A DNA stretch of 37,589 nucleotides from Allokutzneria sp. NRRL B-24872 (lineage in GTDB: Bacteria; Actinomycetota; Actinomycetes; Mycobacteriales; Pseudonocardiaceae). The notes below the pieces were generated by a model, which saw only the letters and a list, made by a program, of their open reading frames with translations, was not told the origin of the DNA and ran no database searches. The position numbers and the translations under genes are program-made. Where the stretch lies: contig NZ_MUMH01000071.1 of assembly GCF_002155965.1 (NCBI RefSeq), forward strand, positions 1 through 37,589. Direction: 5' to 3'. This document shows, one piece after another, positions 14,813 through 29,840 of this stretch (within the stretch, counting starts at the first letter, position 1; every line of letters starts with the position of its first letter).

Positions 14813-16612
14813 GTGTCCATCGTTTCACCTGCCCGGACCGAGCACGCCCAGCGCAAGCCTCGCCACCGGGTGACCAGCCCTGCCGCCGTCGAGGCGCAGG
14901 TCGCCCCGGAGGCCACCGACGTCGCCGACGTCGAGACCCCGGAAACCAAGACCTTCGCCGAGCTGGGCCTGCCGCAGGTGCTCGTCGAGCGCCTCGCCAA
15001 GCGCGGCATCGTCGACGCCTTCCCGATCCAGGCCGCCACGCTGCCGGACTCCCTCGCCGGGCGCGACCTGCTCGGCCGCGGCCAGACCGGCTCCGGCAAG
15101 ACCCTGGCCTTCGGCCTGCCGATGCTCGTCGCCCTCTCCCAGGGCCGCACCAAGCCGCTGCAGCCGCGCGGCCTGGTCTTGGTGCCCACCCGCGAGCTTG
15201 CGATGCAGGTCCGCGACTCCCTCGGTGAGCTGGCGGAGGGCCTCGGCCTGCGCTGCAACATCGTCGTCGGCGGCACCTCGTTCCCGAAGCAGGTCGCCGC
15301 GCTGCGGCGCGGGGTCGACCTGCTGATCGCCACCCCCGGCCGCCTCAGCGACCACATCCGGCAGGGCACCTGCTCGCTGGCCGAGGTCCAGGTCACCGCG
15401 CTGGACGAGGCCGACCAGATGGCCGACATGGGCTTCCTGCCCCAGGTCCGCGAGCTGCTCGACCAGGTCGCGCCCAACGGCCAGACGCTGCTGTTCTCCG
15501 CCACCCTGGACGGCGACGTCGACCAGCTGGTGCGGCGCTACCTGACCGACCCGGTGACCCACTCGACCGCTCCGTCCTCGGCGAGCGTGTCCACGATGGA
15601 CCACCACGTGCTGCTGATGAGCAACGACGACAAGCTCGACGTCGTCGCCGAGGTGGGTGCCCGCGAGGGCAGGACCATCATGTTCGTCCGCACCAAGCAC
15701 GGAGTGGACCGGCTGACCAAGAAGCTGCGCTCCGTCGGCGTGAAGGCCGGCGGCCTGCACGGCGGCAAGACCCAGGGCGCGCGCACCCGCACCCTCGGCG
15801 ACTTCCGCGACGGCGTCACCACCTGCCTGGTGGCCACCAACGTCGCCGCCCGTGGCATCCACGTCGACGACGTGAGCCTGGTCGTGCACGTGGACCCGCC
15901 GCTGGACCCGAAGGACTACCTGCACCGCGCGGGCCGCACCGCTCGCGCCGGCCAGGCCGGTGTCGTCGTCACGCTGGCGCTGCAGGCGCAGCGCCGCTCC
16001 GTGCAGGCGATGACCTCCAAGGCGGGCGTGCAGCCGACCATCACCCGGGTCCGCCCGGGCTGGACCGAGCTGAACGAGATCACCGGCGCGCAGAAGCCCA
16101 GCGGCATCGAGCTGCCGGACGAGGCCGTGCGCCCCGAGCGGCGTCCCGCCCGTGCCGGTGGTGGCGAGCGCGGTGGCCGCTTCGGCCGTCGCCCCGCCCG
16201 TGACGGCGACCGCCCGCGTGGTTTCCGCCGCGACGACCGCGGTGGGGAAGGCGGCTTCCGTCGCGACGACAACCGTGGCGAGGGCGTCCGCCGGGACGAC
16301 CGCGGCGGCGACCGCGGCTTCCGCTCCGACGACCGCGGTGGCGAGCGCGGCGGCTTCCGCCGGGACGACAACCGTGGCGAGGGCGACCGTGGCGGCTTCC
16401 GCCGGGACGAGCGCGGTTTCCGTGCCAACGACGACCGCCCGGCCCGCAGCGGCTTCCGCACCGACGACCGCCCGAGCGGCCGTGCTCCTCGTGACGAGTG
16501 GCGCCGCCCCGAGCGCGCCGCCGGTCCGCGTGAGGACCGCGGTGGTGACCGCGCCGCCCGCCAGAACCGTGGCACCGGGGGCCGCAAGCGCTTCAACTCC
16601 CCCACCCACTAA
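14813..16612 (+). CDS. DEAD-box RNA helicase with Arg/Gly/Asp-rich repeat tail
   Basis: 599-residue ATP-dependent RNA helicase, RhlE/CsdA-like. Visible motifs: Q motif region FPIQAATLPDSLAGRD, motif I GQTGSGKT, Ia PTRELAMQV, Ib TPGRL, II LDEAD, III SAT, and VI HRAGRTARAG. After about residue 435 the protein becomes a tail of imperfect 8-12-residue units (RRDDRGGEGGF, RRDDNRGEG, FRSDDRGGERGG), basic and probably RNA-binding, ending GGRKRFNSPTH. GTG at 14813 follows GGAGGATCT; the frame is open further upstream, but that part is leader. A cold-stress or ribosome-assembly role is usual for such proteins. A terminator follows. Confidence 0.93.
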   Translation: MSIVSPARTEHAQRKPRHRVTSPAAVEAQVAPEATDVADVETPETKTFAELGLPQVLVERLAKRGIVDAFPIQAATLPDSLAGRDLLGRGQTGSGKTLAFGLPMLVALSQGRTKPLQPRGLVLVPTRELAMQVRDSLGELAEGLGLRCNIVVGGTSFPKQVAALRRGVDLLIATPGRLSDHIRQGTCSLAEVQVTALDEADQMADMGFLPQVRELLDQVAPNGQTLLFSATLDGDVDQLVRRYLTDPVTHSTAPSSASVSTMDHHVLLMSNDDKLDVVAEVGAREGRTIMFVRTKHGVDRLTKKLRSVGVKAGGLHGGKTQGARTRTLGDFRDGVTTCLVATNVAARGIHVDDVSLVVHVDPPLDPKDYLHRAGRTARAGQAGVVVTLALQAQRRSVQAMTSKAGVQPTITRVRPGWTELNEITGAQKPSGIELPDEAVRPERRPARAGGGERGGRFGRRPARDGDRPRGFRRDDRGGEGGFRRDDNRGEGVRRDDRGGDRGFRSDDRGGERGGFRRDDNRGEGDRGGFRRDERGFRANDDRPARSGFRTDDRPSGRAPRDEWRRPERAAGPREDRGGDRAARQNRGTGGRKRFNSPTH

Positions 16613-16631: not shown

Positions 16632-16675
16632 AGAACCCCCGCCCCCACGCACTCAACGTGGGCGGCGGGGGTTCT
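16632..16675 (+). terminator. Hairpin terminator of the helicase gene
   Basis: AGAACCCCCGCCCCCACG pairs with CGTGGGCGGCGGGGGTTCT, 18 bp with one bulged base and a short loop. It begins 20 bases after the helicase stop. Confidence 0.85.
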
Positions 16676-16739
16676 CGCGTTTTGGCAACGCGTTGCGAAA
16701 GAGAGCGCTCCCCAATCACAACAAGTAGCCAAAACGCGA
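16675..16739. repeat. Dyad element A (GAGCGCT-core imperfect palindrome)
   Basis: TCGCGTTTTGGC (16675-16686) and GCCAAAACGCGA (16728-16739) are perfect 12-bp arms. The interior is a weaker palindrome around AGCGCT, with the left part GAAAGAGAGCGCT and the right part AGCGCTCCCCAATCAC. The same core appears in elements B and C at 16949 and 26967, with different arms here. Inside the left half is the 12-bp palindrome GCAACGCGTTGC (16685-16696). It follows directly on the helicase terminator. Confidence 0.75.
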
Positions 16740-16948
16740 AAAGGGGGCTGAGCGGACTACGGCCTGGCCGAGGGGTGAGCGAGCACAACGTCGCAGCTCA
16801 GCACACCCACCACCACGCCGCACACCGCGTGGAGCACCCACCACGAAGAGCGTCGCTCGCCACGTGGAGCGCCACCCACCACGTAGAATGACCCCATGCA
16901 CTCCGTCCGCGCGCACCCCCGATCGGTCCGCGTGGTGGGCGAGAGATT
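16740..16948. other. Non-coding stretch with short CACCCACCACG repeats
   Basis: I support no gene here, between converging helicase and cysG. The unit CGTGGAGC-(GC)-CACCCACCACG-(A/T)AGA occurs twice (16828-16849 and 16863-16887), and ACCCACCACCACG once more at 16805-16817. Related CACCCACCACG or CAACCACCAC strings occur near 10.45 and 26.75-26.83 kb. Confidence 0.5.
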
Positions 16949-17011
16949 CCCGTTTCGTACTCCTAGCGGGAAAGAGAGCGCTTCCAATTACTGCTAGGAG
17001 TACGAAACGGG
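16949..17011. repeat. Dyad element B (GAGCGCT-core imperfect palindrome)
   Basis: CCCGTTTCGTACTCCTAGC (16949-16967) and GCTAGGAGTACGAAACGGG (16993-17011) are perfect 19-bp arms. The 25-base interior GGGAAAGAGAGCGCTTCC (then AATTACT) again centres on AGCGCT. It starts 9 bases after the cysG stop on the minus strand, so it could end that transcript. The arms share CCGTTTCGTACTCC with element C, 10 kb away. Confidence 0.85.
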
Positions 17012-17020
17012 TTCTGGGGC

Positions 17021-18226
17021 TCAGGGGGCTACGGCGGTCACTTCGCCGATCACGATGATGGCGGGTGGGCGAATCGCCTCGGTGGTGATGGTGGTGCCTA
17101 GCTTGTCGAGGGTTGTGCGCACCACTCGCTGAGCGCGCGTGGTGCCCTCCTGGATCACCGCGACGGGCGTGGAGGCGGGTCGGCCGTGCTCGATCAGGGT
17201 GTTCGCGAAGACGTCGGCGCGCTCGACGGCCATCATCAGCACGAGGGTTCCGCGCAGCTTCGCCAGTGCGGGCCAGTCCACAAGGGACCGTTCGTCGGTG
17301 GGGCTCACATGTCCTGACACCACAACGACTTCGTGCGCGACACCGCGATGGGTCACCGGCACGCCGCCGACCGCTGGCACGCCGAAAGCGCTTGTGACGC
17401 CTGGGACAACGGTCACCGGGACGTCGGCCTCGGCGCAGGCGAGCAGTTCTTCGAAGCCCCTGCCGAAGACGTAGGGGTCGCCGCCTTTGAGGCGCACCAC
17501 GAACTTCCCGGCCTTCGCGTGCTCGATCAGCGTCGAGTTGATCACGTCCTGGCTGGCCGCGCGGCCGTAGGGGATCTTCGACGCGTCGACGACGAGCACG
17601 TGCGGCGCCAGCTCCTCCAGCAGCTCGCGCGGGGCGAGGCGGTCGGCGACGACGACGTCGGCGCGAGCCAGCAAACGCCTGCCGCGCACGGTGATCAGCT
17701 CCGGATCGCCCGGCCCGCCGCCGACGAGCGCCACGCCGGGCAGCGGCGGTGAGGCGGCGTCGCTGACCACGCCCGAGCGCAGCGAGTCCAGCACGGCGTT
17801 GCGCACCGCCGCCGAGCGCCGGTGCTCTCCGCCCGCCAGGACGCCCAGCAGGAGCCCGTCGTGCGAGCCCACCGCAGGGGTCACGGCGGTGCCGAGGCGA
17901 GCGATGTCGGCGCGCACGCAGAACACGCGCTTCTGTTCAGCCTCAACGGTGATCGCCGCGTTCACGTCCGTGTCGTCGGTGCACGCGACGGCGTACCAGG
18001 CGCCGTCGAGGTCTCCGTCGGCGTAGGCGCGACGGGTCCAGGTGAACTCCCCCGCCGTCGCCATCGCCTCCACGGCCGGGGTCGCCTCCGGCGAGATGAC
18101 CTCGATGACCGCTCCCGAAGCGACCAGCCGCGGCAGTCGGCGCTGGGCGACCGTGCCCGCACCGACCACCACGACGCGCCGCCCGGCGAGGTCCAACCCG
18201 GCGAGGTAGTGCTGCTCAGCCCGCAT
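17021..18226 (-). CDS. CysG-like siroheme synthase: precorrin-2 dehydrogenase + uroporphyrinogen-III methyltransferase
   Basis: 401-residue bifunctional enzyme at the entry to siroheme and cobalamin synthesis. Residues 1-150 are the NAD-dependent precorrin-2 dehydrogenase module (GRRVVVVGAGTVAQRR). From about residue 164 comes the SAM-dependent SUMT module: VALVGGGPGDPELITVRG, VRLKGGDPYVFGRGFEE and VVPGVTSAFGVPAV, all signature loops intact. M. tuberculosis has the same fusion (Rv2847c) beside cobB. The ATG at 18226 lacks a clear Shine-Dalgarno sequence. The gene lies 55 bases behind the cobalt transporter and is probably read from the same B12-riboswitch-controlled transcript. Confidence 0.94.
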   Translation of the reverse strand: MRAEQHYLAGLDLAGRRVVVVGAGTVAQRRLPRLVASGAVIEVISPEATPAVEAMATAGEFTWTRRAYADGDLDGAWYAVACTDDTDVNAAITVEAEQKRVFCVRADIARLGTAVTPAVGSHDGLLLGVLAGGEHRRSAAVRNAVLDSLRSGVVSDAASPPLPGVALVGGGPGDPELITVRGRRLLARADVVVADRLAPRELLEELAPHVLVVDASKIPYGRAASQDVINSTLIEHAKAGKFVVRLKGGDPYVFGRGFEELLACAEADVPVTVVPGVTSAFGVPAVGGVPVTHRGVAHEVVVVSGHVSPTDERSLVDWPALAKLRGTLVLMMAVERADVFANTLIEHGRPASTPVAVIQEGTTRAQRVVRTTLDKLGTTITTEAIRPPAIIVIGEVTAVAP

Positions 18227-18281
18227 GAGGGCTAAGCATGCCGATCCGCACCGCCGAGCACACCTGGAGCGCGCTGTGACA

Positions 18282-19361
18282 TCACTCGCCCACCGGGATC
18301 GCCGGGTGCCGGTCCTCGTAGCCGCGCGCCTTCCACCACAGCACCGCGCCGCCCCACGCCAGCAGGAAGGTCGCGGCGATGCCGTAGCCCATGACCTCGA
18401 ACTGCTCGGAGATCTCGCCGATCCCGGCCAGCCACGCCATCCCGGCCTTCTCGGCGAGCAGCTGCGACACGTAGACGACCACCACGAAGCCCGCGATCGC
18501 CACGGTGATCGCGGTGGTGACGGTGTTGTAGAACAGCGTCCGCACCGGGTTGCGGTAGGACCACGAGTAGGCCCGCGTCATCAGCAGCGAGTCCAGCGTG
18601 TCGAACGTGCTCATCCCCGCCGCGAAGATCAACGGCAGGCTCAGCACGGCGACCAGCGGGAGCTGACCGCCGGCCGCGTGGGTCGCGGTGAGGCCGAGCA
18701 GGGTGATCTCCGAAGCGGTGTCCAGGCCGAGCCCCATCAGGAAACCGACCGGGTACATGTGCCAGGAGGAGCGGATCAGCACGCGCAGCCGCCCGCCGAA
18801 GATCCGGTTGAACACGCCGCGGTTCACCAGCACGCGCTCGACCTCGGCCTCGGCCATCTGACCGCGCTTCAGCTTCCGCCAGAGCCCGGTGAGCGAGCGC
18901 AGCACGCCCGCGTTGAGCACGGCGACCAGCAGCAGGAAGGAGATCGCCACGATCGTCGCGATGGTGCCGGTGACCTCCTGCACGCCCTCCACCTCGGACT
19001 CCGCGACGGTGCCCGCGGCGAGGGAGACGATCAGCGCGAGCACCAGCACCACCGAGGAGTGGCCCATCGCGAAGAAGAAGCCGACGCCGATGGGTCGCTT
19101 GCCGCGCAACAACATCAGCCGCGTGGTGTCGTCGATGGCGGCGATGTGGTCGGCGTCGAAGGCGTGCCGGACGCCGAGCACGTAGGCGATCGCGCCCGCT
19201 GAGGCGAGGATGCCGGAGCCCGGGAAGCGGTCGGCGTGGGCCAGGTACAGCCCGATGCCCAGGACGTGCAGCAGCACGATCGCGCCGATGATGCCGAAGA
19301 GCCTGCGCCGCTCCTGCGCGGTCCACGCGCCGCTGGGGGCATGGGCGTCAAGGGACGTCAT
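18282..19361 (-). CDS. NiCoT (HoxN/NixA) family cobalt/nickel permease
   Basis: 359-residue integral membrane protein of the nickel/cobalt transporter family. The signature HAFDADHIAAIDD (HX4DH metal-selectivity motif) lies in the second hydrophobic segment, followed by GFFFAMGHSSVV and LGLDTASEI, the further conserved family motifs. Hydrophobic segments fit about eight helices, with a charged cytoplasmic loop around RKLKRGQMAEAEVE. ATG at 19361 is set by AGGAGGT eight bases upstream. A cobalamin riboswitch precedes it, so cobalt is the likely substrate and the gene is expected to be off when B12 is plentiful. The next gene is the CysG-like enzyme. Confidence 0.93.
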   Translation of the reverse strand: MTSLDAHAPSGAWTAQERRRLFGIIGAIVLLHVLGIGLYLAHADRFPGSGILASAGAIAYVLGVRHAFDADHIAAIDDTTRLMLLRGKRPIGVGFFFAMGHSSVVLVLALIVSLAAGTVAESEVEGVQEVTGTIATIVAISFLLLVAVLNAGVLRSLTGLWRKLKRGQMAEAEVERVLVNRGVFNRIFGGRLRVLIRSSWHMYPVGFLMGLGLDTASEITLLGLTATHAAGGQLPLVAVLSLPLIFAAGMSTFDTLDSLLMTRAYSWSYRNPVRTLFYNTVTTAITVAIAGFVVVVYVSQLLAEKAGMAWLAGIGEISEQFEVMGYGIAATFLLAWGGAVLWWKARGYEDRHPAIPVGE

Positions 19362-19400
19362 GAAAGGAACCTCCTGGGTGCCTCGCCCGAGGGGAGTTCG

Positions 19401-19423
19401 CGCGGGCCACGGCGTGGCCCGCG
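19401..19423 (-). promoter_or_regulatory. Hairpin between riboswitch 1 and the transporter start
   Basis: A near-perfect 23-base palindrome, 11 bp on each side of one central base (CGCGGGCCACG / CGTGGCCCGCG). It lies between the aptamer and the AGGAGGT ribosome binding site, where an expression platform would be. Whether it acts on transcription or translation is not decidable here. Confidence 0.6.
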
Positions 19424-19430
19424 ACCACCA

Positions 19431-19532
19431 GGGAGTTCCTGACTCTCGGATCACCTCGACCCGATCACAGTGGCGGGACCGTCCCGGACTCGCACCGGGT
19501 TCCTCGCACTGGGTGGCGTCCCGCATCGTGGG
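19431..19532 (-). ncRNA. Cobalamin riboswitch 1, upstream of the cobalt transporter
   Basis: Read on the minus strand: GAGGAACCCGGTGCGAGTCC, then GGGACGGTCCCGCCACTGTGA, then CCGAGAGTCAGGAACTCCC. These are the conserved blocks of the adenosylcobalamin riboswitch, with the B12 box GCCACTGTGA at 19474-19465. The borders are approximate. It should bind adenosylcobalamin and lower expression of the transporter and cysG-like genes. Confidence 0.93.
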
Positions 19533-19666
19533 GGCGGCGGCGAGGCCGCGTCAATCCGGCCGGCGGGGGTTGAGCCCGGGCCGTGTCGGCCACGTGATCT
19601 TCGACGGACGCCGGGAAGGCGGTCCGGAGAGGCCGGGAGAAAAGAAACGGAATAGGAGCGAAATGA

Positions 19667-19705
19667 GCTTTGCCTGCCCCGGGCGGCGGGAGGGGCAGGC
19701 AAAGC
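19667..19705 (-). terminator. Strong hairpin terminator ahead of riboswitch 1
   Basis: A perfect 14-bp stem (GCTTTGCCTGCCCC / GGGGCAGGCAAAGC) with an 11-base loop. On the minus strand it is followed by a T-rich stretch (CATTTCGCTCCTATTCCG then TTTCTTTTC), so it points to minus-strand termination. It would separate transcripts arriving from the cbiG-cobJ side from the riboswitch-controlled transporter. Confidence 0.75.
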
Positions 19706-20103
19706 GGGTCGGCGAACGTGAAACTCTTCCAGAAATCGACGAGGCCACGATCCCCGCCTCGACCGTACACTTCGTCGTCTCTTTCGCGGTCGCGATCACA
19801 AGTTTCCGCAACCGCTCACACACGTTCAGCGGTGGTGCTCAGTTCTGGTCGGCTCAGCCGGAAGACCGGGGCCGGGTGGTGCCGTTGACCGGGCCGTCAC
19901 GCTCAACCCAGCGGTGACGGAGGATCTCCCGTGGTCAACATTGCCGCGGCCGCGGATCTCGTCCTGGCCAGTGCTCGCAATTTCCACCTCCCACCTGGGA
20001 CGTGTTACCTCGTCACGACGGGCATATCCATGGCACACCCGAATGCCCTTGCGCGGCAAGGGCTTGCGCCACCTTTTCATCACAACGTGCTACCGGTTGC
20101 GCA
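19706..20103. other. Intergenic region, no gene supported
   Basis: Between the 3' end of cbiG-cobJ and the terminator at 19705. It has weaker GC-codon bias than its neighbours and no reading frame with recognisable content. GCCCTTGC/GCAAGGGC (20045-20063, 8-bp stem, 3-base loop), 40 bases past the cbiG-cobJ stop, may be that gene's own weak terminator. The plus-strand frames have good-looking ribosome binding sites (GGAGGAT at 19920) but run into the antisense of cbiG-cobJ. Confidence 0.5.
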
Positions 20104-21807
20104 TCAATGCGCGGACGCGGGCAGAGTGACCATCCGGCCGCCGACCGCGCGGGTCCGCGAACTGCCGACGACGACCGTCGCGGAGGCGGGAACGGCGGCC
20201 GGGTCGAAGCCGGTGATCATCGCCACGTCGACGCCGGTACCAGTGCCGGTCCCGGGCCCGACGACGCCGACCGGGGTCCTCGGCGGCCGGTGCAGGCGGA
20301 GCAGGTCCAGCGCGGCGCCGAGCCGCCAGTCCGCGTTGTCCCGCAGGCAGACCACGACGTCGGCCTCGGCGACGGCGCGCACCCGCTGCTCGATCACCGG
20401 CCACGGCGTCGCGGAGTCGGCGAGGCTGATCACCGCGTGGTCGGCGCCGAGCGGGGCACCCAGGGCCGCCGCTGCCGCCGACTCCGCGCTCACCCCGGGC
20501 ACTCCGGCGATCTCGATCCGCGCGTCCGCCTGCTCCAGTGCCGGGCCGATGAGCGCGCCGGAGCCGACCAGGGCCACGGAGAGCCCCGCGACGGCCAGGC
20601 GCACCGCCTCGGCCGCGCGCTGGCGCTCGTCGCCCGGGGCGCTCACCCGGACCTCGGTGCCCAGGCGCAGCAGGTGCCGGACGCGCTCCAGGTCGGCTTC
20701 GAGCCCGACGACGACGGCCGCGCGGCGCAGCTCGGCCTCGGCGCGGGGCACGCGAAGGTCGTCGGCGTCGGGACCGGCGTCCACGATCACCAGCCGACCG
20801 CGCGGGCGCACCCTGGCCGCGGCGACGGTCGCCTTGTCCCCCTTGAGCTTCGCCGCGACCAGCTCGACCGGCGACCCGCACGCCAGCTCCCCGGCGGCGT
20901 GCAGCGCGGCGGCTTCGGCGACGCTGGGGGTGCCCAGCTCGGCGAGCACGTCCTCGCTCGGCGTGGGCACGTCGACCCCGGCAAGGGTCTCCGCCGGGTA
21001 GTGCAGCAGGTCTGGCGCGCTGTCCTGCCAGAAGCCGTGGTCGTCGACGGCGTCCACGATGCCCGGCTCATCCGATTTGGCGTCAACGGTGGCGAAGGCC
21101 CGCACCGCGCGCAGGTCCAGCTCGGCGCGCTCCGCCAGTTCCGCGAGCAGGCCGGTCACCGCGCCCGCCGACACCCCGATGGACGAGCCGATCCCGATCA
21201 CCAGGGTCCTGGGCACCAGACGGAGGACCTTGCCTTCGACGGCGAGCAGCCGGTCGTCCACCACAACTGTCCACTGTGGACCGCTCGGTGGCGACTCCTC
21301 GTGCACCGTGACGTTGGAAGGCATGGCGGGCAAGGGAAAGCGCAGTGGGTTGAGCACGCGGACCGGCTCCCCCGCGAGCAGTGCAGCCGCGCAGTCGGCG
21401 AGTTCACCGTCCACGGTGGCCTCAAGCAGCTCGACCAGCTCGTCGAGGACCGTGGCGCCGACCGACTCGGCCGCCGTGGTGACGACCGGGCGGCAGCCCA
21501 GGAACTCGGCGACGCGCTCCGCCAGCGCGTTCGCCGCCGGGCCCCCGGTCAACGCGACCGCGAAGCCGCTCTCCTCGTCGACGCAGACCACGGCCGGGTC
21601 GCCGTGCCGGTCGGTGAGCAGCGGCGCGACCAAGCGGACCGTCGCCCCGGTGGACAGGAAGAACACGGCGGCGCCGAGTCGCGGCCACATCCGCCGCAAC
21701 GCGGGCTTCACCGCCCCTTCGACCACCGCGGCGTCCGCGCCGAGGTGTGCCGCCAACTCCCCCGCGGAGCGACGCCCCTGCGCCGTCACCGCAAACAACC
21801 CGATCAC
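20104..21807 (-). CDS. CbiG - CobJ fusion (cobalt-precorrin-5A hydrolase / precorrin-3B C17-methyltransferase), CobJ half degenerate
   Basis: 567 residues. Residues 1-150 are CbiG N (GLFAVTAQGRR, FFLSTGATVRLVAPLL, RPVVTTAAE). Residues 200-335 are the CobE/CbiG C-terminal domain (LVIGIGSSIGV, AFATVDAKSDEPG, TPSVAEAAAL). Residues 336-567 align with CobJ/CbiH (GVPGVSAESAAAAALGAPLG, HAVISLAD, RPPRTPVGVV, TVVVGSSRTR, GRMVT). However, the SAM-binding signatures are changed: GxGPGD reads DAGPDAD (343-349), the SSGDPGxYG loop reads GSGALIGPA (415-423), and YNPxS reads LRDNA (488-492). The methyltransferase half may thus be inactive or altered; CbiG is less affected. The start is GTG 21807 (VIGLFAVT). 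Confidence 0.87.
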   Translation of the reverse strand: MIGLFAVTAQGRRSAGELAAHLGADAAVVEGAVKPALRRMWPRLGAAVFFLSTGATVRLVAPLLTDRHGDPAVVCVDEESGFAVALTGGPAANALAERVAEFLGCRPVVTTAAESVGATVLDELVELLEATVDGELADCAAALLAGEPVRVLNPLRFPLPAMPSNVTVHEESPPSGPQWTVVVDDRLLAVEGKVLRLVPRTLVIGIGSSIGVSAGAVTGLLAELAERAELDLRAVRAFATVDAKSDEPGIVDAVDDHGFWQDSAPDLLHYPAETLAGVDVPTPSEDVLAELGTPSVAEAAALHAAGELACGSPVELVAAKLKGDKATVAAARVRPRGRLVIVDAGPDADDLRVPRAEAELRRAAVVVGLEADLERVRHLLRLGTEVRVSAPGDERQRAAEAVRLAVAGLSVALVGSGALIGPALEQADARIEIAGVPGVSAESAAAAALGAPLGADHAVISLADSATPWPVIEQRVRAVAEADVVVCLRDNADWRLGAALDLLRLHRPPRTPVGVVGPGTGTGTGVDVAMITGFDPAAVPASATVVVGSSRTRAVGGRMVTLPASAH

Positions 21808-21866
21808 TCCGGAACCCTATCCCCGCCGCGCACTCCCCACGCCCTGCGGGGAGTGCGGGACACGGG

Positions 21867-23084
21867 TCAGGAGGTGCTGCGACGGCCCCAGAGGAGGAGG
21901 GTGGGGGTGGTGCCGACGAAACGGCTGGCGCCGTCGGACATGGTGGCGAGGCGGTTGGCGGAGAGCTGGCAGCCGTCGACCACGTAGCCGGAGTGCCGCA
22001 GCGCGTCCCGGCACGCGCCCAGGCGGTCCAGGGCGGTGAGGGCGACGACGACGCGCTCGGCTCCGACGGCCGCGCACGCCGCGACGACCTCGGGGCCTCC
22101 GCCACCGATGAAGATCGCGTCGGGGCGGGGCAGGCCGACCAGGGCCGCGGGTGCCTCGTTCTCGATGATGCGCATGTCGACGCCGTGGGTCGCGGCGTTG
22201 GCGATGATGCGCATGCACTGCACGGGATTCGGCTCGACGGCGACGACAGCGGCACCCAGGCGGGCGCACTCGATCGCCAGCGCGCCGGCGCCGGAGCCGA
22301 CGTCCCAGACGAGGGTGCCGGGGCGCGGGCCGAGCTTGGCGAGGGCGAGCGCGCGGACCTCGGCCTTGCTCACGGTGCCGTCGCGGTGGGCGAAGGCCTC
22401 CTCGGGCAGCGCCCAGCCGGAGGCGGGCGGGATCGGCTCGCCACCGGCGCACCAGCCGCGCGGCGGAACGGCCTCGGGGTCGGCGAGGCAGAGCACCACG
22501 TTCGCCTCGCGCCAGCGGCGCTTGGCGGCCTTGGGCGGGTCCACCACGGAGATCCGCTCGTCCGGGGTGTCCATGTCCTCGGCGACGATCAGCGTGCGGC
22601 GCCAGCCGGTGAGGCCCGCGCCGATCTCCGCCGGACCGGCGACGGCGTCGGTCAGCACGGCGACGGCGGGGCGCGCGCGGCAGACGTTGAGCGCGCGCCG
22701 GAGGTCGCGGCCGCGAGCGCTGACGACGAGCACGTCGTCCCACGAACGGCCGAGCTTGGCCATCAGGCGCTGCACGCCGGTGAGGCCGGGCAGGACCTTC
22801 GCGGTGCGCACGCCGCGCTCGCGCAGCCCCTGCATCACGCCGAAGAAACCGGGGTCGCCCGCGGTGATGACGACGGCCGGGCCGTCGTCGGCGGACAGCT
22901 CCTCCAGGTCGGTGAGCGCCTGGTCGAACTGGGCGGTTCCCGGTTCACCGAGCGGAATCCGCCGGATGCCGTGCGGGGCGTGCGCGTCGAGGTGCACGCG
23001 TCCGCCGAGCACGACCTTGGCCTCGGCGAGCACGTCGGCGGCGCCTCTCGGCAGGCCGTCACCGTCGAGGCCGATCACGTGCAC
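21867..23084 (-). CDS. cobL: Precorrin-6Y C5,15-methyltransferase (decarboxylating)
   Basis: CobL methylates precorrin-6Y at C5 and C15 and decarboxylates the acetate at C12. The N-terminal tetrapyrrole methylase half (CbiE-like) shows VHVIGLDGDG and VVITAGDPGFFGV. The C-terminal half (CbiT-like) shows TVSKAEVRALALAKL and the SAM-binding VWDVGSGAGALAIE. The start is uncertain: GTG 23084 (or 23078) gives the usual 405 residues, whereas the frame stays open to 23303 and would add 73 unconserved residues. No good ribosome binding site marks either choice. CobL implies the aerobic, late-cobalt-insertion route, agreeing with the ChlID-type chelatase and CobB/CobO nearby. Confidence 0.92.
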   Translation of the reverse strand: MHVIGLDGDGLPRGAADVLAEAKVVLGGRVHLDAHAPHGIRRIPLGEPGTAQFDQALTDLEELSADDGPAVVITAGDPGFFGVMQGLRERGVRTAKVLPGLTGVQRLMAKLGRSWDDVLVVSARGRDLRRALNVCRARPAVAVLTDAVAGPAEIGAGLTGWRRTLIVAEDMDTPDERISVVDPPKAAKRRWREANVVLCLADPEAVPPRGWCAGGEPIPPASGWALPEEAFAHRDGTVSKAEVRALALAKLGPRPGTLVWDVGSGAGALAIECARLGAAVVAVEPNPVQCMRIIANAATHGVDMRIIENEAPAALVGLPRPDAIFIGGGGPEVVAACAAVGAERVVVALTALDRLGACRDALRHSGYVVDGCQLSANRLATMSDGASRFVGTTPTLLLWGRRSTS

Positions 23085-23409
23085 CGCGATCGCGGCGGGG
23101 GGACCTGAGCGCGGGCGCTCGGGATTCGGCGACCGCTGCTGGAGCAGCTCGTGGCCGACCGGTCCGGCCTCCGTTGTCTGGCGGCCCCGGCGGAACATCC
23201 CACCGGAGCGGCCAACGCCCGTACGCACAGCTCGTCTCCACATCCCCGGGGCACGACCGGTGCGCTGGAACCAGGTGGGCGGGGCGCCCATGCCCACGGA
23301 CACCCATCAGTTAGCCCATGAGCGGGCCCGCCTGCGCGCGCCGCGCCGGAGATTCACCCGTTCGACGGCAATGCAAACGTTCTGGGATGTCCTTTGTGGA
23401 CGGTGGGGC
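23085..23409. other. Spacer between cobM and cobL
   Basis: 325 bases without a supported gene. The cobL frame is open through 23303, so part of it could encode an N-terminal extension. No B12 box, terminator hairpin or repeat element is visible. Confidence 0.4.
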
Positions 23410-24606
23410 TCAGCCGGTCTTGGACGAGCGCTTCGGCTTGCGCGCGGTGGTGCTCTTGCCCTTGGCGACCTTGGTGGGGGCCTTGGCCTTCTCGGTCTTC
23501 TCGGGCTTGTCGGCCTTGTCCGCGACGGGCTTCTCCGCGGCGGGCTTGCGCTTGGGCTCGGCCTGCTCGACCGCGGCCGGGACCCCGGGGAGGTCGACGG
23601 GCAGCGTCACCTGGTCGGGGTGCTTGGTGGTCTTGCTGGCCGCGGCCACCCTGGTGGAGGTGCCGGTGAGCCGCGCGGTGCGGTAGCGGCGGGCGGTGCG
23701 GCTGGTCGTCGCGCGGGTGGTCTCCTGCAGGTCGCGGACGGCCCACCAGGCCACGTCGGAGCCGGGCTGCGCGGACTTGGCGGTCGACTCCGCCTCGCCC
23801 TGGATCTCCTGCGGCTCCACGGGCTTCACCGCGCGCAGCGGGCGGCTGGTGCGACGGTAGCCCGCGGCGGCGGAGGCCGGGGCGTAGGAGCGGGCACCGC
23901 CGTTGCGCAGCGCCTTGCCGACCAGGAAGAGCGTGTGCCGCCAGACCTTGTGCTGCTTGACCACGCGCTCCAGCTCGCCGACGGTCGTCTGCACGGTCAG
24001 CTCGTCCGGCCAGGTGGTCTTGTAGGCGATGACGACCGGGGTGTCCTCGGGGTAGCCGCCCTCGATCAGCTCCTCGGCCAGCTGGCCCGCGCGGGCTCCC
24101 GGCAGCGAGATGGCCATCGTGGTGCCGTGCCGGGCGAACGCGCGGATGCGCTCGGCGTCCGGCAGGTCGGAGTTGCTGCCCTCGACCCTCGTCATGATCA
24201 TCGACTGGGCGTTCTCGGTGGAGGTCAGCTCCTTGCCCACGGTCGCGGCGGCGGCGGAGTAGGTGGAGACGCCGGGGACGATCTCCACGTCCAGGCCGAT
24301 CTTGCGGCAGATGTCGTGCTGCTCCTGCACGGAGCCCCACAGCGCGGTGTCCCCGGGGTGCAGGCGGACGACCTTGAGCCGCTTGACGCTCGCGCGCCGG
24401 TAGATCTCCAGGACCTCCTCCTGGCCGACCAGGGTGAAGTCGACCAGCTCGGCGGCCTCGGAGGCGTGCTCGCGGACGCAGTCGGCGTCCAGCACGCTCG
24501 GCGCCCACAGCACGACGTCGGCCTCGGCGATCCGTCGTGCCGCGCGCAGCGTCAACAGGTCTGCTGCGCCAGGCCCGGCGCCGATGAACGAAACGCGCCC
24601 GTTCAC
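23410..24606 (-). CDS. cobM: Precorrin-4 C11-methyltransferase with Lys/Ala/Pro-rich C-terminal tail
   Basis: Residues 1-250 are a complete CobM: FIGAGPGAADLLTLRAARRI, VVRLHPGDTALWGSVQEQ and EIVPGVSTYSAAAATVGKEL hold the SAM and substrate loops; the enzyme methylates precorrin-4 at C11. CobM is normally about 250 residues. Here 148 further residues follow in frame: a Thr/Arg-rich part with SDVAWWAVRDLQETTRA, then a Lys/Ala/Pro tail at 352-398 (KPAAEKPVADKADKPEKTEK and onward) resembling histone H1-like or HU-type tails. GTG 24606 follows GAGGGGAG. ACGGTA at 24671-24676 (TACCGT on the minus strand) may be a -10. Confidence 0.93.
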   Translation of the reverse strand: MNGRVSFIGAGPGAADLLTLRAARRIAEADVVLWAPSVLDADCVREHASEAAELVDFTLVGQEEVLEIYRRASVKRLKVVRLHPGDTALWGSVQEQHDICRKIGLDVEIVPGVSTYSAAAATVGKELTSTENAQSMIMTRVEGSNSDLPDAERIRAFARHGTTMAISLPGARAGQLAEELIEGGYPEDTPVVIAYKTTWPDELTVQTTVGELERVVKQHKVWRHTLFLVGKALRNGGARSYAPASAAAGYRRTSRPLRAVKPVEPQEIQGEAESTAKSAQPGSDVAWWAVRDLQETTRATTSRTARRYRTARLTGTSTRVAAASKTTKHPDQVTLPVDLPGVPAAVEQAEPKRKPAAEKPVADKADKPEKTEKAKAPTKVAKGKSTTARKPKRSSKTG

Positions 24607-24733
24607 GGTTGCTCCCCTCGGCCGCTCCTGCGACACGGCAATCACGACACGACAAACAGTGGTCGCGAAGACGGTACCGCCACCGGTGATCGGCTCACGA
24701 TCCCGGTCACGTTGGGCGCCGGAGCGGGCACAA

Positions 24734-25324
24734 TCAGTCAAGATCAGCCGGAACGAGCGACCATGAAACAAGGTCGTGTTGGCGGCCCCGGTGCCGGTCA
24801 GCGTTGCGCAGCACGCCCTCGCGGGTGAACCCGGCCTTCTCCGCGACCCGCTGCGACGCCGTGTTCCCCACCGCCGCGCGCAGTTCCACCCTGGCGAAGT
24901 CGAGTTCGCGCAGCGCCCACTCCGCGACCATCCTCGTGGCCTCCGTCATGAAGCCGCGGCCTCGCGCGTGCGGCGCGGCCCAGTAGCCGACCTCGGTCAC
25001 CCGGTGCTCCCACCGCGTCCTGGTCAGGCCGATGGTGGCGAGGAAGCGGTCGGTCTCGGGGTCGCAGACCGCCCAGCTCTGCCCCTCGCCGGAGAGGCGC
25101 ACGTGGTGGGACTGCTCGGCGCACCAGGTCAGCGCGGCGGATTCGTCGTAGGGCTCGGGCAGCGGAATCCAGCGCAGGACCTCGTCGTCGGCACCTTCGG
25201 CCACGTCGGCGGCGTCGGTGACCCGGAACGGCCGGAGCACCGTGCGCCGGGTGCGCAGGACGACCAGTGGCAGCACGCAGACGACGTGCGCCAGCGCGAA
25301 GGGGTCATCGGCGTCGATGCGCAT
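24734..25324 (-). CDS. GNAT-family N-acetyltransferase (RimJ/RimL type)
   Basis: 196-residue acetyltransferase. LRPFRVTDAADVAEGADDEV opens the fold, GYWAAPHARGRGFMTEATRM contains the acetyl-CoA loop (RGRGF), and VGNTASQRVAEKAGFTREGV is the typical alpha4-beta7 end of the RimJ/RimL subfamily. The substrate is unknown; protein N-termini or small amines are usual. ATG 25324 is favoured by homology of the start; GTG 25360, 4 bases after the cobB stop, is possible, and neither has a clear ribosome binding site. It sits within the cobalamin cluster, although no cobalamin step needs an acetyltransferase; in M. tuberculosis a GNAT also flanks this cluster. Confidence 0.85.
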   Translation of the reverse strand: MRIDADDPFALAHVVCVLPLVVLRTRRTVLRPFRVTDAADVAEGADDEVLRWIPLPEPYDESAALTWCAEQSHHVRLSGEGQSWAVCDPETDRFLATIGLTRTRWEHRVTEVGYWAAPHARGRGFMTEATRMVAEWALRELDFARVELRAAVGNTASQRVAEKAGFTREGVLRNADRHRGRQHDLVSWSLVPADLD

Positions 25325-25364
25325 CTGGGACGACGGGTCAACGTGCTCCACGCCAGACACCGTG

Positions 25365-26699
25365 TCACATCGCGCAACGCTCCACGAAGCGCCGCACGGA
25401 CTCCGGCGCCGCGGCGGGATGTGTGTGCAGGTAAGAAGCGTGGACACCGTCGACCGCGAAACCCTCGCGAACGGGACGACCTTCGCGGTCGCGCCAGAAC
25501 CACGCGGGCTGCTCACCCGATCCGGGAGTGATGCGGGTGCGGTGGAACTCGTGCCCCGTCCGGCGTTCCCCGGGCGCCGCGACCGGCGAGTCCGTCGCGG
25601 CGACGGCGTCGCGGTAGCCCAGCACGAGCCGCGAGGTCATCTCCGCTTCGGCGTCGAGCACTCCGCACATCGGCATGCCGTCGAGGGACCGCGCGAGGTA
25701 GAGCAGTCCTCCGCACTCCGCGTGCACGGGCCTTCCGAGATCCGCGACTTCCTTGCGCAGCACCGTGTTCGCACTCAGCTCGGCGGCGTGCTGCTCCGGG
25801 AAGCCGCCGGGCAGGAGCAGTCCGGCCGTGCGCTCCGGCAGGTGCTCGTCGCGCAGCGGGTCGAACGGGACGACCTCCGCGCCCGCCGCTTCGAGCAGTT
25901 CGAGGTGTTCCGCGTAGCCGAAGGTGAACGCCCGCCCACCCGCCACCGCGACGACGGGGCGACCTTCCACCGGATTGTCCACAGTGGACTCCCAGGGCGT
26001 GGTTCCCCGCCGTGGAGCCGATCGCGCGAGGCGGACGACGGCTTCGAGGTCCACCGACTCCGCGACGAGGTCGCCCATCGCGGCGACGGCGTCGAGCGCG
26101 GCGGCTCCGTGCTCGACCGCCGTGACCAGGCCCAGGTGGCGCGAGGGCACGTCGAGCTGCTGGCGGCGCGGGAGGCAGCCCACCACGTCGAGGCCGACCT
26201 CGTCGCAGGCGTCGCGCAGCACCTGTTCGTGGTGCGGGGAACCGACGTTGTTGAGCAGCACTCCGGCCAGGCGGACCTCGGGGTCGAAGCCGCGGAAGCC
26301 GTGCAGCAGGGCGGCGAGGCTGCGCCCCTGACCGCGCGCGTCCACGACGAGGACCACGGGTGCGTCGAGCAGCTTCGCCACGTGCGCGGTCGAGCCGAAG
26401 CTCGGCGTGCCGGAGCGGCCGTCGAACAGGCCCATCACGCCCTCGACCACCGCGATGTCGGCGTTGCCGGAGCCGTGCGCGAACAGCGGCGCGACGCGCT
26501 CCTCGCCGACCAGGACCGGGTCGAGGTTGCGGCCGGGGCGGCCCGCCGCGATCGAGTGGTAGCCGGGGTCGATGTAGTCCGGGCCGACCTTGAACGGCGC
26601 GACCCGGTGCCCCGCCCGGCGCAGCGCGCTGATCAGCCCCGTCGCCGCCGTGGTCTTCCCGCACCCCGAGCCCGGCGCGGCGAGCACCACCCGCGCCAC
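25365..26699 (-). CDS. cobB: Cobyrinate/hydrogenobyrinate a,c-diamide synthase
   Basis: CobB uses ATP and glutamine to amidate the a and c side chains of (hydrogeno)byrinate. 444 residues: the N-terminal P-loop APGSGCGKTT and FKVGPDYIDPGYH with VEGVMGLFDG form the dethiobiotin-synthetase-like ATPase half. The C-terminal class I glutaminase-like half has LLPGGFPEQHA, HAECGGLLYL (nucleophile Cys) and HEFHRT (His). GTG 26699 gives the family start VARVVLAAPGSG. Gene order ChlID-CobO-CobB is the same as in M. tuberculosis Rv2850c-Rv2848c, but a 377-base repeat-rich spacer separates it from cobO. Confidence 0.95.
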   Translation of the reverse strand: MARVVLAAPGSGCGKTTAATGLISALRRAGHRVAPFKVGPDYIDPGYHSIAAGRPGRNLDPVLVGEERVAPLFAHGSGNADIAVVEGVMGLFDGRSGTPSFGSTAHVAKLLDAPVVLVVDARGQGRSLAALLHGFRGFDPEVRLAGVLLNNVGSPHHEQVLRDACDEVGLDVVGCLPRRQQLDVPSRHLGLVTAVEHGAAALDAVAAMGDLVAESVDLEAVVRLARSAPRRGTTPWESTVDNPVEGRPVVAVAGGRAFTFGYAEHLELLEAAGAEVVPFDPLRDEHLPERTAGLLLPGGFPEQHAAELSANTVLRKEVADLGRPVHAECGGLLYLARSLDGMPMCGVLDAEAEMTSRLVLGYRDAVAATDSPVAAPGERRTGHEFHRTRITPGSGEQPAWFWRDREGRPVREGFAVDGVHASYLHTHPAAAPESVRRFVERCAM

Positions 26700-26707
26700 G
26701 AGTTCCG

Positions 26708-26840
26708 CAGTCCTCAAGTACCCACAACCCCCGCTCGCGCTGTCGTCAACCACCACAAACCCCGGTGCGGCCCCGGTTCTCCGGTCTTCAAGTACACCGA
26801 ACCCCGGCCCACGTAGTCGTCAACCACCACAAACCCCGTG
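26708..26840. repeat. Imperfect tandem duplication of about 60 bp upstream of cobB
   Basis: Units at 26708-26767 and 26782-26840 align at roughly 80 %. Both contain the identical 23-bp block beginning GTCGTCAACCACCACAAACC (26742-26764 and 26816-26838) and a TC-CTCAAGTACNC-like start (CAGTCCTCAAGTACCCAC versus CGGTCTTCAAGTACACCG). A further fragment, CCCACGTAG-ACTCAACC, lies at about 26894-26910. It is the cobB upstream region, so a regulatory role is possible. Confidence 0.75.
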
Positions 26841-26966
26841 GGGATGTCAGCCTCCGCCACTGGCTCAACGAGTGCACCCACCCCCGCTCACCACCCCACG
26901 TAGACTCAACCCGGGCACTCCACCGCCCCGCTCGTCCCAACGCGCCCGGCCGTGGTCTAACCCTTC

Positions 26967-27027
26967 CCGTTTCGTACTCCTCACGGGAAATGGAGCGCTC
27001 CCATTACCCGCCTGGAGTACGAAACGG
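26967..27027. repeat. Dyad element C (GAGCGCT-core imperfect palindrome)
   Basis: CCGTTTCGTACTCC (26967-26980) and GGAGTACGAAACGG (27014-27027) are perfect 14-bp arms. Inside, CGGG/CCCG (26984-26987 and 27007-27010) and AATGG/CCATT (26989-26993 and 27001-27005) pair around the AGCGCTC centre, with a 3x3 internal loop and one A-A mismatch. Its arms are those of element B. It begins 50 bases past the cobO stop on the minus strand. Confidence 0.85.
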
Positions 27028-27076
27028 ATTGTGCGACGCTGGGAGTGGGGTCGGCAGGACGGTCCGGCGGGGGGTG

Positions 27077-27691
27077 TCACCACTCGATGCCCTTCTGGCC
27101 CTTCTGACCGGCGTCCATGGGGTGCTTCACCTTGGTCATCTCCACGACCAGGTCGGCGGCGTCGACCAGGGCAGCCGGAGCGTTGCGGCCGGTGATCACC
27201 ACGTGCTGGTGGCCGGGACGCTCGGCGAGCACCGCCACGACCTCGTCGACGTCGATCCACCCCCAGTGCAGCGGATAGGTGAACTCGTCGAGCACGTAGA
27301 GGTCGTGCCGCTGCTCGGCGATTCGGCGGGCGATCTCGCGCCAGCCCTCGCGCGCGGCCTCGGCGTGGTCCTCCTCGCTGCCCTTCTTCCGCGACCAGGA
27401 CCAGCCCTCGCCCATCTTGTGCCACTCGACGGGACCGCCCTGGCCGGTGTTCGCGTGCAGCTCGCCGAGCGCGCGGAAGGCGGCCTCCTCGCCGACCTTC
27501 CACTTGGCGGACTTGACGAACTGGAAAACGCCGATGTCCCAGCCCTGGTTCCACCCGCGCAGCGCGAGCCCGAACGCGGCGGTGGACTTGCCCTTCATGA
27601 CGCCGGTGTGCACCACCACGAGCGGCCGGTTCCTGCGCTGCCGCGTGGTCTTGCCGTCGGCGGGCACGACCGAAGGTTGTCCTTGTGGCAC
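27077..27691 (-). CDS. cobO: Cob(I)yrinic acid a,c-diamide adenosyltransferase
   Basis: CobO transfers the 5'-deoxyadenosyl group of ATP to cobalt, giving the adenosylated corrin. 204 residues of the CobA/BtuR family: VVVHTGVMKGKSTAAFG is the P-loop (Gly30-Ser36), WDIGVFQFVKSAKWKVGEE and YVLDEFTYPLHWGW are the conserved ATP and substrate segments, and VEMTKVKHPMDAGQKGQKGI closes the protein as usual. GTG 27691 is preceded by AAGGGG. Nine bases separate it from the chelatase stop, so both are on one B12-riboswitch-controlled message. Confidence 0.96.
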   Translation of the reverse strand: MPQGQPSVVPADGKTTRQRRNRPLVVVHTGVMKGKSTAAFGLALRGWNQGWDIGVFQFVKSAKWKVGEEAAFRALGELHANTGQGGPVEWHKMGEGWSWSRKKGSEEDHAEAAREGWREIARRIAEQRHDLYVLDEFTYPLHWGWIDVDEVVAVLAERPGHQHVVITGRNAPAALVDAADLVVEMTKVKHPMDAGQKGQKGIEW

Positions 27692-29740: not shown

Positions 29741-29840
29741 GGGGTGAGTTCCTGGCTCCCGGATCGCTCCGGTCACAGTGGCGGGACCGCGCCGGATTCG
29801 CACCGGCTTCCTCGCACTCCCCTCGCGTCGTCCCCGGCAT
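29741..29840 (-). ncRNA. Cobalamin riboswitch 2, upstream of the chelatase-cobO operon
   Basis: On the minus strand: GAGGAAGCCGGTGCGAATCC, GCGGTCCCGCCACTGTGACC (B12 box at 29782-29773) and GGGAGCCAGGAACTC. It matches the AdoCbl riboswitch blocks and riboswitch 1 closely; borders are approximate. It should reduce chelatase and CobO expression when adenosylcobalamin is abundant. Confidence 0.93.

Follow-up and report, generated by a model that had tools for sequence, protein, structure and literature searches.

A lineage-specific family of palindromic repeats with modular ends behind genes of Allokutzneria

Three palindromes at the locus

In a 37,589-nucleotide stretch of the genome of Allokutzneria sp. 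NRRL B-24872 (contig NZ_MUMH01000071.1, assembly GCF_002155965.1; the whole stretch is called the window here), three palindromes lie behind genes and are referred to as elements A, B and C (Table 1). Element A follows a DEAD-box helicase gene (14870-16612, plus strand) and the terminator-like hairpin behind it. Element B is separated by 9 bp from the end of a minus-strand gene of the tetrapyrrole methylase/cysG type (17021-18226), and there are 48 bp between element C and the end of cobO (minus strand, 27077-27667); the other neighbour of C is a cobB/cbiA-type gene according to Pfam. Gene limits were taken from our own codon-usage caller, with no annotation used. A preliminary description of the sequence had located the three palindromes in the same places, behind the helicase terminator, the cysG-type gene and cobO. 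We found that they are members of a dispersed family of high copy number, best read as a new, lineage-specific repeat family resembling repetitive extragenic palindromes (REPs) and miniature inverted-repeat transposable elements (MITEs), with modular ends.

Each copy consists of two inverted end modules, of type A or type B, around one shared asymmetric core of ~21 bp. The core is common to all three window elements (consensus GAAAnnGAGCGCTCCCAAATC), and its right half is one base longer than its left. Since this base puts the core off-centre, a scan for exact symmetry recovered a single element. Element A measures 65 bp including its TCGCG..CGCGA ends, 61 bp of it alignable, and elements B and C measure 63 bp each, C with one terminal mismatch.

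Table 1 Features of the palindromes and their surroundings in the window
Feature	Position	Strand	Remarks
Ordinary terminator-like hairpin (AACCCCCGCCCCCACG..CGTGGGCGGCGGGGGTT)	16634..16673	+	Read by eye; directly before element A
Element A, arm type A (TCGCGTTTTGGC arms)	16675..16739	+	Shared core on the plus strand
Promoter-like -10 box TAGAAT	16884..16889	+	Part of the mini-ORF unit of B
Degenerate leaderless 15-codon mini-ORF of B	16896..16943	+	ATG present; codon 16 GAG, no stop
Element B, arm type B (CCCGTTTCGTAC arms)	16949..17011	+	Shared core
Promoter-like -10 box TAGACT	26901..26906	+	Unit belonging to C
Degenerate mini-ORF of C	26913..26960	+	Start is GGG; TAA stop at codon 16 kept
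Element C, type B palindrome	26966..27028	+	Shared core; behind cobO

Copy number and placement

We searched the window's own genome (G000; 8.19 Mb in 475 contigs) with each element by BLAST. Strong matches numbered in the dozens, and the best non-self match had an E-value of 4e-27 for A, 7e-23 for B and 3e-21 for C. Alignments of 29 type A and 35 type B copies gave two covariance models for a repeat search, and flanks were fetched and position weight matrices scored. The genome holds at least 107 non-overlapping copies, consisting of at least 41 of type A and at least 66 of type B; these counts are lower bounds from searches in which the 40 or 150 best candidates were scored. Copy lengths are nearly fixed (61 bp for A, 63 bp for B). 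The proposal of a palindrome family in 3' regions, made from the three window elements, is borne out, and the matches are far beyond chance. Several copies stand at contig ends, which is what breaks in the assembly caused by the repeat would produce, and four further hairpins with B arms are shorter and do not have most of the core. Two B copies at contig ends are broken at the same point (CCGCTA|AGGGCTGTCTCGTAA; L198 2497-2559 and L199 1-67, at the ends of G000:C8 and C89), which would fit an insertion sequence that targets the palindrome, as is known for REP elements.

The copies are concentrated between convergent genes, mostly behind stop codons. Of the 107 copies of G000, 57 are in convergent, 25 in tandem and 4 in divergent gaps, 19 more stand at contig edges and 2 within called genes; 90 type B copies of the congeneric Allokutzneria sp. 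A3M-2-11 16 (G001) are distributed over 52 convergent, 27 tandem and 4 divergent gaps, with 1 inside a gene and 6 at contig edges. Against the convergent:tandem:divergent background of the same loci (67:115:83 in G000 and 66:118:105 in G001, counting in the gaps that hold the elements), convergent gaps are in excess at a binomial P of ~1.6e-15 and ~1e-14, respectively. The median distance of type A copies from the nearest stop codon is 18 bp, and 30 of the 38 measurable copies lie within 30 bp. Among the 57 copies in convergent gaps, the core points the same way as the nearest gene in 33 and the opposite way in 24. Among the 107 copies, A and B stand less than 500 bp apart at 7 places versus 0.37 expected at random, and no A-A or B-B pair occurs within this distance; G001 has close B-B pairs (L260, L261).

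Related genomes and orthologous sites

The family models also recovered copies in relatives: many in G001, few in the third congeneric genome (G002), and parallel elements in a second genus of the family (g16). Over 60 genomes, that of the window included, the type B model matched strongly in G001 (at least 89 matches) and G000, weakly in G002 (7), and 10 times in G017 of the other genus. The type A model scored up to 92 bits in G000; it gave at least 88 matches in G001, with a maximum of 46.5 bits and several at the coordinates of B elements, five in G006 and one in G002, and the A arm word is absent from 640 kb of G001 loci. An exact B-stem pattern is present in 11 of the 249 genomes of the family, which the search itself tallied to 2 of 46 genera, and control genomes had no match. 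On the forward strand it is counted 258 times in G001, 52 times in G000 and twice in G002, and eight g16 genomes have between 1 and 61 matches each. The 63-bp palindrome is identical in 13 of 20 G001 loci fetched, while the flanks have diverged.

Elements of g16 match those of Allokutzneria in outer word (CGTTTCGTCCTC) and size but differ in the interior. This parallel family reads CGTTTCGTCCTCTGAATGCGG, a variable inner block and a GCACGCGC-like centre (e.g. L205, L208, L354-L361), and by eye its palindromes adjoin stop codons in a few loci. Another abundant family of nested palindromes, ~100-130 bp long with TCTTCAAGTAC arms, is represented by 15 copies across 0.7 Mb of G001 loci.

We compared G000, G001 and G002 at 15 sites found by segment search and at the window sites. 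Since 10 of the 16 query segments had been preselected for a known B-carrying counterpart in G001, the outcomes are existence proofs, not sharing rates; segment L094 had no good match and L164 was ambiguous. At four sites (L090, L110, L117 and the window A site) a type A palindrome in G000 corresponds to type B in G001 and is absent in G002. Eight sites carry type B in both G000 and G001 with none found in G002 (L107, L131, L132, L153, L159, L169, L143, L113), and at four of these (L131, L132, L159, L169) the core lies in opposite orientations in the two genomes, judged against the flanks; G000 and G001 share type B at two more sites, L183 (core flipped) and L195 (same orientation). At L091 both relatives are empty. 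Presence/absence polymorphism at orthologous sites, a mark of MITEs, is thus found in this family.

At L095 and L104 the orthologous G001 sites (L383, L402) carry TCTTCAAGTAC sequence resembling the different hairpin family, and nothing was recognised in G002. For window elements B and C, no counterpart was found in the orthologous gap of either G001 or G002. No second palindrome was seen alongside the type B palindrome at the window A site of G001, and no palindrome was recognised in the G001 regions of the second A site of L090, or of L122, L127, L137, L157, L179 and L191; the comparison at L176 was equivocal. By eye, G002 has an ordinary-looking hairpin at L090, L143, L169 and the window A site, and G001 also has a similar hairpin at the position of the window hairpin (16634-16673).

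Arm sequence, core and folding

The arms of both types form terminal inverted repeats. The preliminary description had taken arms that change together as a sign of selection for a fold or for a mobile palindromic unit, of which one part stands, since types A and B are wholly different; within a type, changes are not compensated. Over 22 arm pairs, standard pairing reaches 83.5% in A and 87.8% in B, and sliding the partner columns destroys it, as any palindrome must show. On no measure does pairing exceed that in shuffles of the 3' letters among copies, and two-sided pair changes are no more frequent (A, 5 versus a mean of 5.7; B, 3 versus 4.3), so that a covarying RNA stem was rejected within types. 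By taking 71 distinct G001 copies, we found a weak pairing excess (1397 paired cells versus 1383.5; 9 of 500 shuffles as high), which could be explained by relatedness, and 30 two-sided changes versus 25.6 (66 of 500 shuffles as high).

Divergence from the consensus is spread very unevenly. In 60 of the 66 G000 B copies (low-scoring rows with length changes and duplicates were dropped), it is 0.2% at positions 2-12 of both arms, 33.6% in the middle block and 1.5% in the GAGCGCTC centre; the same three blocks are 6.5%, 25.6% and 7.8% divergent in 40 A copies. The 80 G001 loci had been chosen by exact arm words, and the claim of arm invariance is therefore made from G000. Because the outer 11 bp are near-invariant and the middle is variable and uncompensated, we infer recognised sequence ends and a recognised core, clearest in type B. 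In four G000 A copies (C57:11233, C2:50604, C469:47424, C475:26272) the core centre AGCGCT is replaced by AACGTT, which is altered on both sides so that the dyad is kept.

Across the 1.18 Mb of loci chosen around elements, almost all arm words occur as pairs. Among 160 B arm words of G000, 14 are unpaired: the partner is mutated in 4 cases, the contig ends in 6, and the rest fall in 2 interrupted copies and 2 apparent half elements (L119, L141); in G001 the unpaired words are 2 of 182, one at a locus end and one in a half element (L275). For type A in G000, 15 of 52 are unpaired; two of these stand at contig ends, and in all others the partner has changed. When both strands of the three window elements were folded as RNA, five of six folds were far below shuffles (z -4.9 to -7.6). 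A 2-bp target duplication is in excess in the B copies of G000 only (20 of 49 versus 8.5 expected). Of the tetranucleotide tags GTAG and CGTC that adjoin REP palindromes, CGTC occurs by eye near several A ends (uncounted).

A small open reading frame beside type B copies

To one side of many B copies lies a conserved run of TA(A/G)NNT, 6-7 nt, ATG or GTG, 15 codons, a stop, ~5 nt and the palindrome. This unit, a promoter-like box with a leaderless 15-codon small open reading frame (mini-ORF), accompanies about half of the B copies; by eye none was seen beside type A. It fits 78 of 323 flank sides, with 51-54 nt from start to palindrome in 77 of them. In a slightly different selection, also of 78 units (58 from G001, 20 from G000), codon 16 is a stop in 62 (57 TAG, 3 TGA, 2 TAA) and there is none in 16. 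Both window units are broken, that of B having no stop and that of C no start.

The ratio of nonsynonymous to synonymous polymorphism (pN/pS) is 1.35 in G001 and 1.26 in G000 in frame, and 0.76-1.01 in the other frames. The in-frame values mean that the peptide is not conserved, and a mini-ORF encoding a conserved peptide was ruled out, there being no purifying selection. Mean entropy at codon positions 1, 2 and 3 of the G001 mini-ORF is 0.57, 0.82 and 0.51, a pattern that a diversifying or mosaic peptide would give. The orientation of the core to the mini-ORF is split 54:4 in G001 and 11:9 in G000.

Other features of the window

A search at Rfam gathering scores over the whole window and six loci matched the palindromes to no family. 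It found two cobalamin riboswitches (RF00174) on the minus strand of the window (19433-19505 and 29746-29813), which fit the cobalamin genes there, and a thiamine pyrophosphate riboswitch in L208.

Discussion

The palindromes are of high copy number and lie behind genes; they are present, absent or changed in type at orthologous sites, their type B ends are near-invariant and uncompensated, and five of the six strand folds of the window elements are strong. Taken together, we favour a lineage-specific, mobile-like palindromic family whose members act as putative bidirectional terminators at 3' gene ends, an account that we hold to be rather probable. The elements probably spread in the manner of tiny mobile units and probably contribute to the ending of transcription. 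Of the earlier REP/MITE-like reading, the dispersed 3'-intergenic repeat is retained, a terminator-like role is possible, and selection for folding as shown by covariation is given up.

In the mechanism that we propose, a trans-acting enzyme would recognise the ends and copy or replace units in a MITE- or REP-like manner. Harmlessness at 3' gene ends, together with a use as bidirectional terminators or insulators, may be why units settle there or persist; at several such sites G002 appears to have an ordinary hairpin of the terminator kind in their place. Template switching, or recombination between the inverted arms, may flip the asymmetric core. Some B copies would form the 3' end of a mini-gene made of a promoter and the 15-codon leaderless frame, whose small transcript is probably ended by the palindrome.

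Several results weigh against this account. No transposase or recombinase linked to the elements was found, 187 copies gave no clear excess of target duplications at 3-6, 8 or 9 bp, and the plasmids, phages and viral contigs of IMG/VR, PLSDB and INPHARED held no match at the sensitivity used. The plus strand fold of element A is no better than shuffles (z -1.2), and no clear U-run was seen behind the window hairpins. Many G000 copies have no G001 counterpart. The change from A to B could also mean that one copy was lost and another inserted independently afterwards. The orientation of the core to the mini-ORF is not free in G001, unlike in G000. Finally, the models weigh the arms, such that copies with decayed arms may be missed and arm invariance overstated.

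Other explanations account for parts of the data. The palindromes could be strong, non-mobile terminators selected for a stable stem, their similarity coming from gene conversion. Placement behind genes, stable folds, the G002 hairpins seen by eye in the same position and identical palindromes amid diverged flanks all suit this idea; a stem, however, needs no invariant sequence, yet the outer type B arms are almost constant and the inner stem varies without compensation, and counts of the exact stem pattern span 2 to 258 among three congeners, which makes it unlikely to our minds. Alternatively, the real unit could be the multicopy mini-gene itself, with promoter, leaderless 15-codon frame and palindromic terminator, forming a small RNA or peptide family from which palindromes without it have decayed. 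The nearly constant spacing between start and palindrome and the stop at codon 16 in most units argue for such a gene, whereas the high in-frame pN/pS, the 16 units without that stop, the B copies without the unit, its absence by eye beside type A and the two broken window copies argue against it, and we consider it doubtful.

REP or REPIN elements moved by a REP-associated tyrosine transposase (RAYT, a Y1 enzyme) would explain a palindromic, 3'-intergenic repeat of high copy number, as the excerpts of PMC3733652 and PMC1525189 describe for REPs. A length of 61-65 bp falls within the 21-65 bases given for REPs in the excerpt of PMC1525189; that of PMC3733652, on the other hand, puts them at 20-40 bp. 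The Y1 transposase domain PF01797 had no match in G000, G001, G002 or four g16 genomes (G017, G180, G228, G130), which also counts against our favoured account, while the 14 genomes searched included two with a match (G009, G014), both non-carriers within the bacterial family; the control was positive in 5 of 14 known genomes. With no Y1 transposase and no duplication of 3-6, 8 or 9 bp, the family is by these tests not a RAYT-driven REP, for all its REP-like appearance and behaviour, and this origin seems very unlikely. An operator or decoy for a LacI-family regulator of the CebR/CelR kind, also raised in the preliminary description, is highly improbable. The right half of the core (TTGGGAGC) resembles the CebR half site, the GAGCGCTC centre is that of CebR/CelR operators, and the four A copies with a switched centre stay self-complementary. 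The 12-bp core word TTGGGAGCGCTC, however, occurs 73 times inside elements and twice outside them in the 1.18 Mb, both times in elements cut by a contig or locus end, and this confinement argues against a free operator. The fully symmetric GGGAGCGCTCCC occurs five times inside elements and once outside, in a further A-like element, and the bare 8-mer GAGCGCTC also occurs outside elements (42 and 29 times). The Allokutzneria copies are asymmetric and, unlike such operators, rarely stand in divergent, promoter-type gaps (4 of 107), and the operator was disfavoured.

Among described systems, the family resembles REP, BIME and REPIN repeats with their RAYTs, which in the excerpts of PMC1525189 and PMC3733652 are palindromic, of high copy number, 3'-intergenic, found between convergent genes and possible targets of insertion sequences; the Allokutzneria family differs in that its tested carriers have no Y1 transposase, its core is shared and asymmetric, and two arm types interchange at orthologous sites. 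The SPRITE, BOX and RUP repeats of pneumococcus are likewise small and dispersed, SPRITE being terminator-like and BOX modular according to the excerpt of PMC3049150; compared by description only, the Allokutzneria modules differ in having symmetric arms and a core of near-fixed length. ERIC/IRU and Correia/NEMIS MITEs are small, mobile-like, fold in RNA and may carry short open reading frames (excerpt of PMC2229807); the Allokutzneria family differs in that no target-site duplication of 3-6, 8 or 9 bp was seen. Inverted repeats of Neisseria uptake sequences are mentioned in the excerpt of PMC3049150. The Allokutzneria arm words, almost always paired in the loci examined and with three half elements seen, are unlike uptake words, and free arms acting as uptake sequences were disfavoured. 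Neisseria DNA uptake sequences combine a conserved word with an inverted repeat behind genes, where they act as terminators. A full-text literature search on palindromic, REP and MITE repeats in actinobacteria or near convergent genes turned up no actinobacterial palindromic family, and the word actinobacteria does not occur in PMC3733652.

As a speculative extension, improbable as it stands, 3' gene ends of Allokutzneria might be sockets for interchangeable palindromic cassettes, which an arm-specific, non-RAYT enzyme system would install, replace (A by B) and invert in place, with a variable leaderless mini-gene travelling with B and a parallel system of the same outer word and another interior in the second genus. 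Among the three congeneric genomes, copy numbers are at least 107 in one, over 250 in another and apparently below ten in the third. The family allows tests of the spread of palindromic repeats without RAYTs, of portable terminators, and of the change of repeat type and orientation at an orthologous site.

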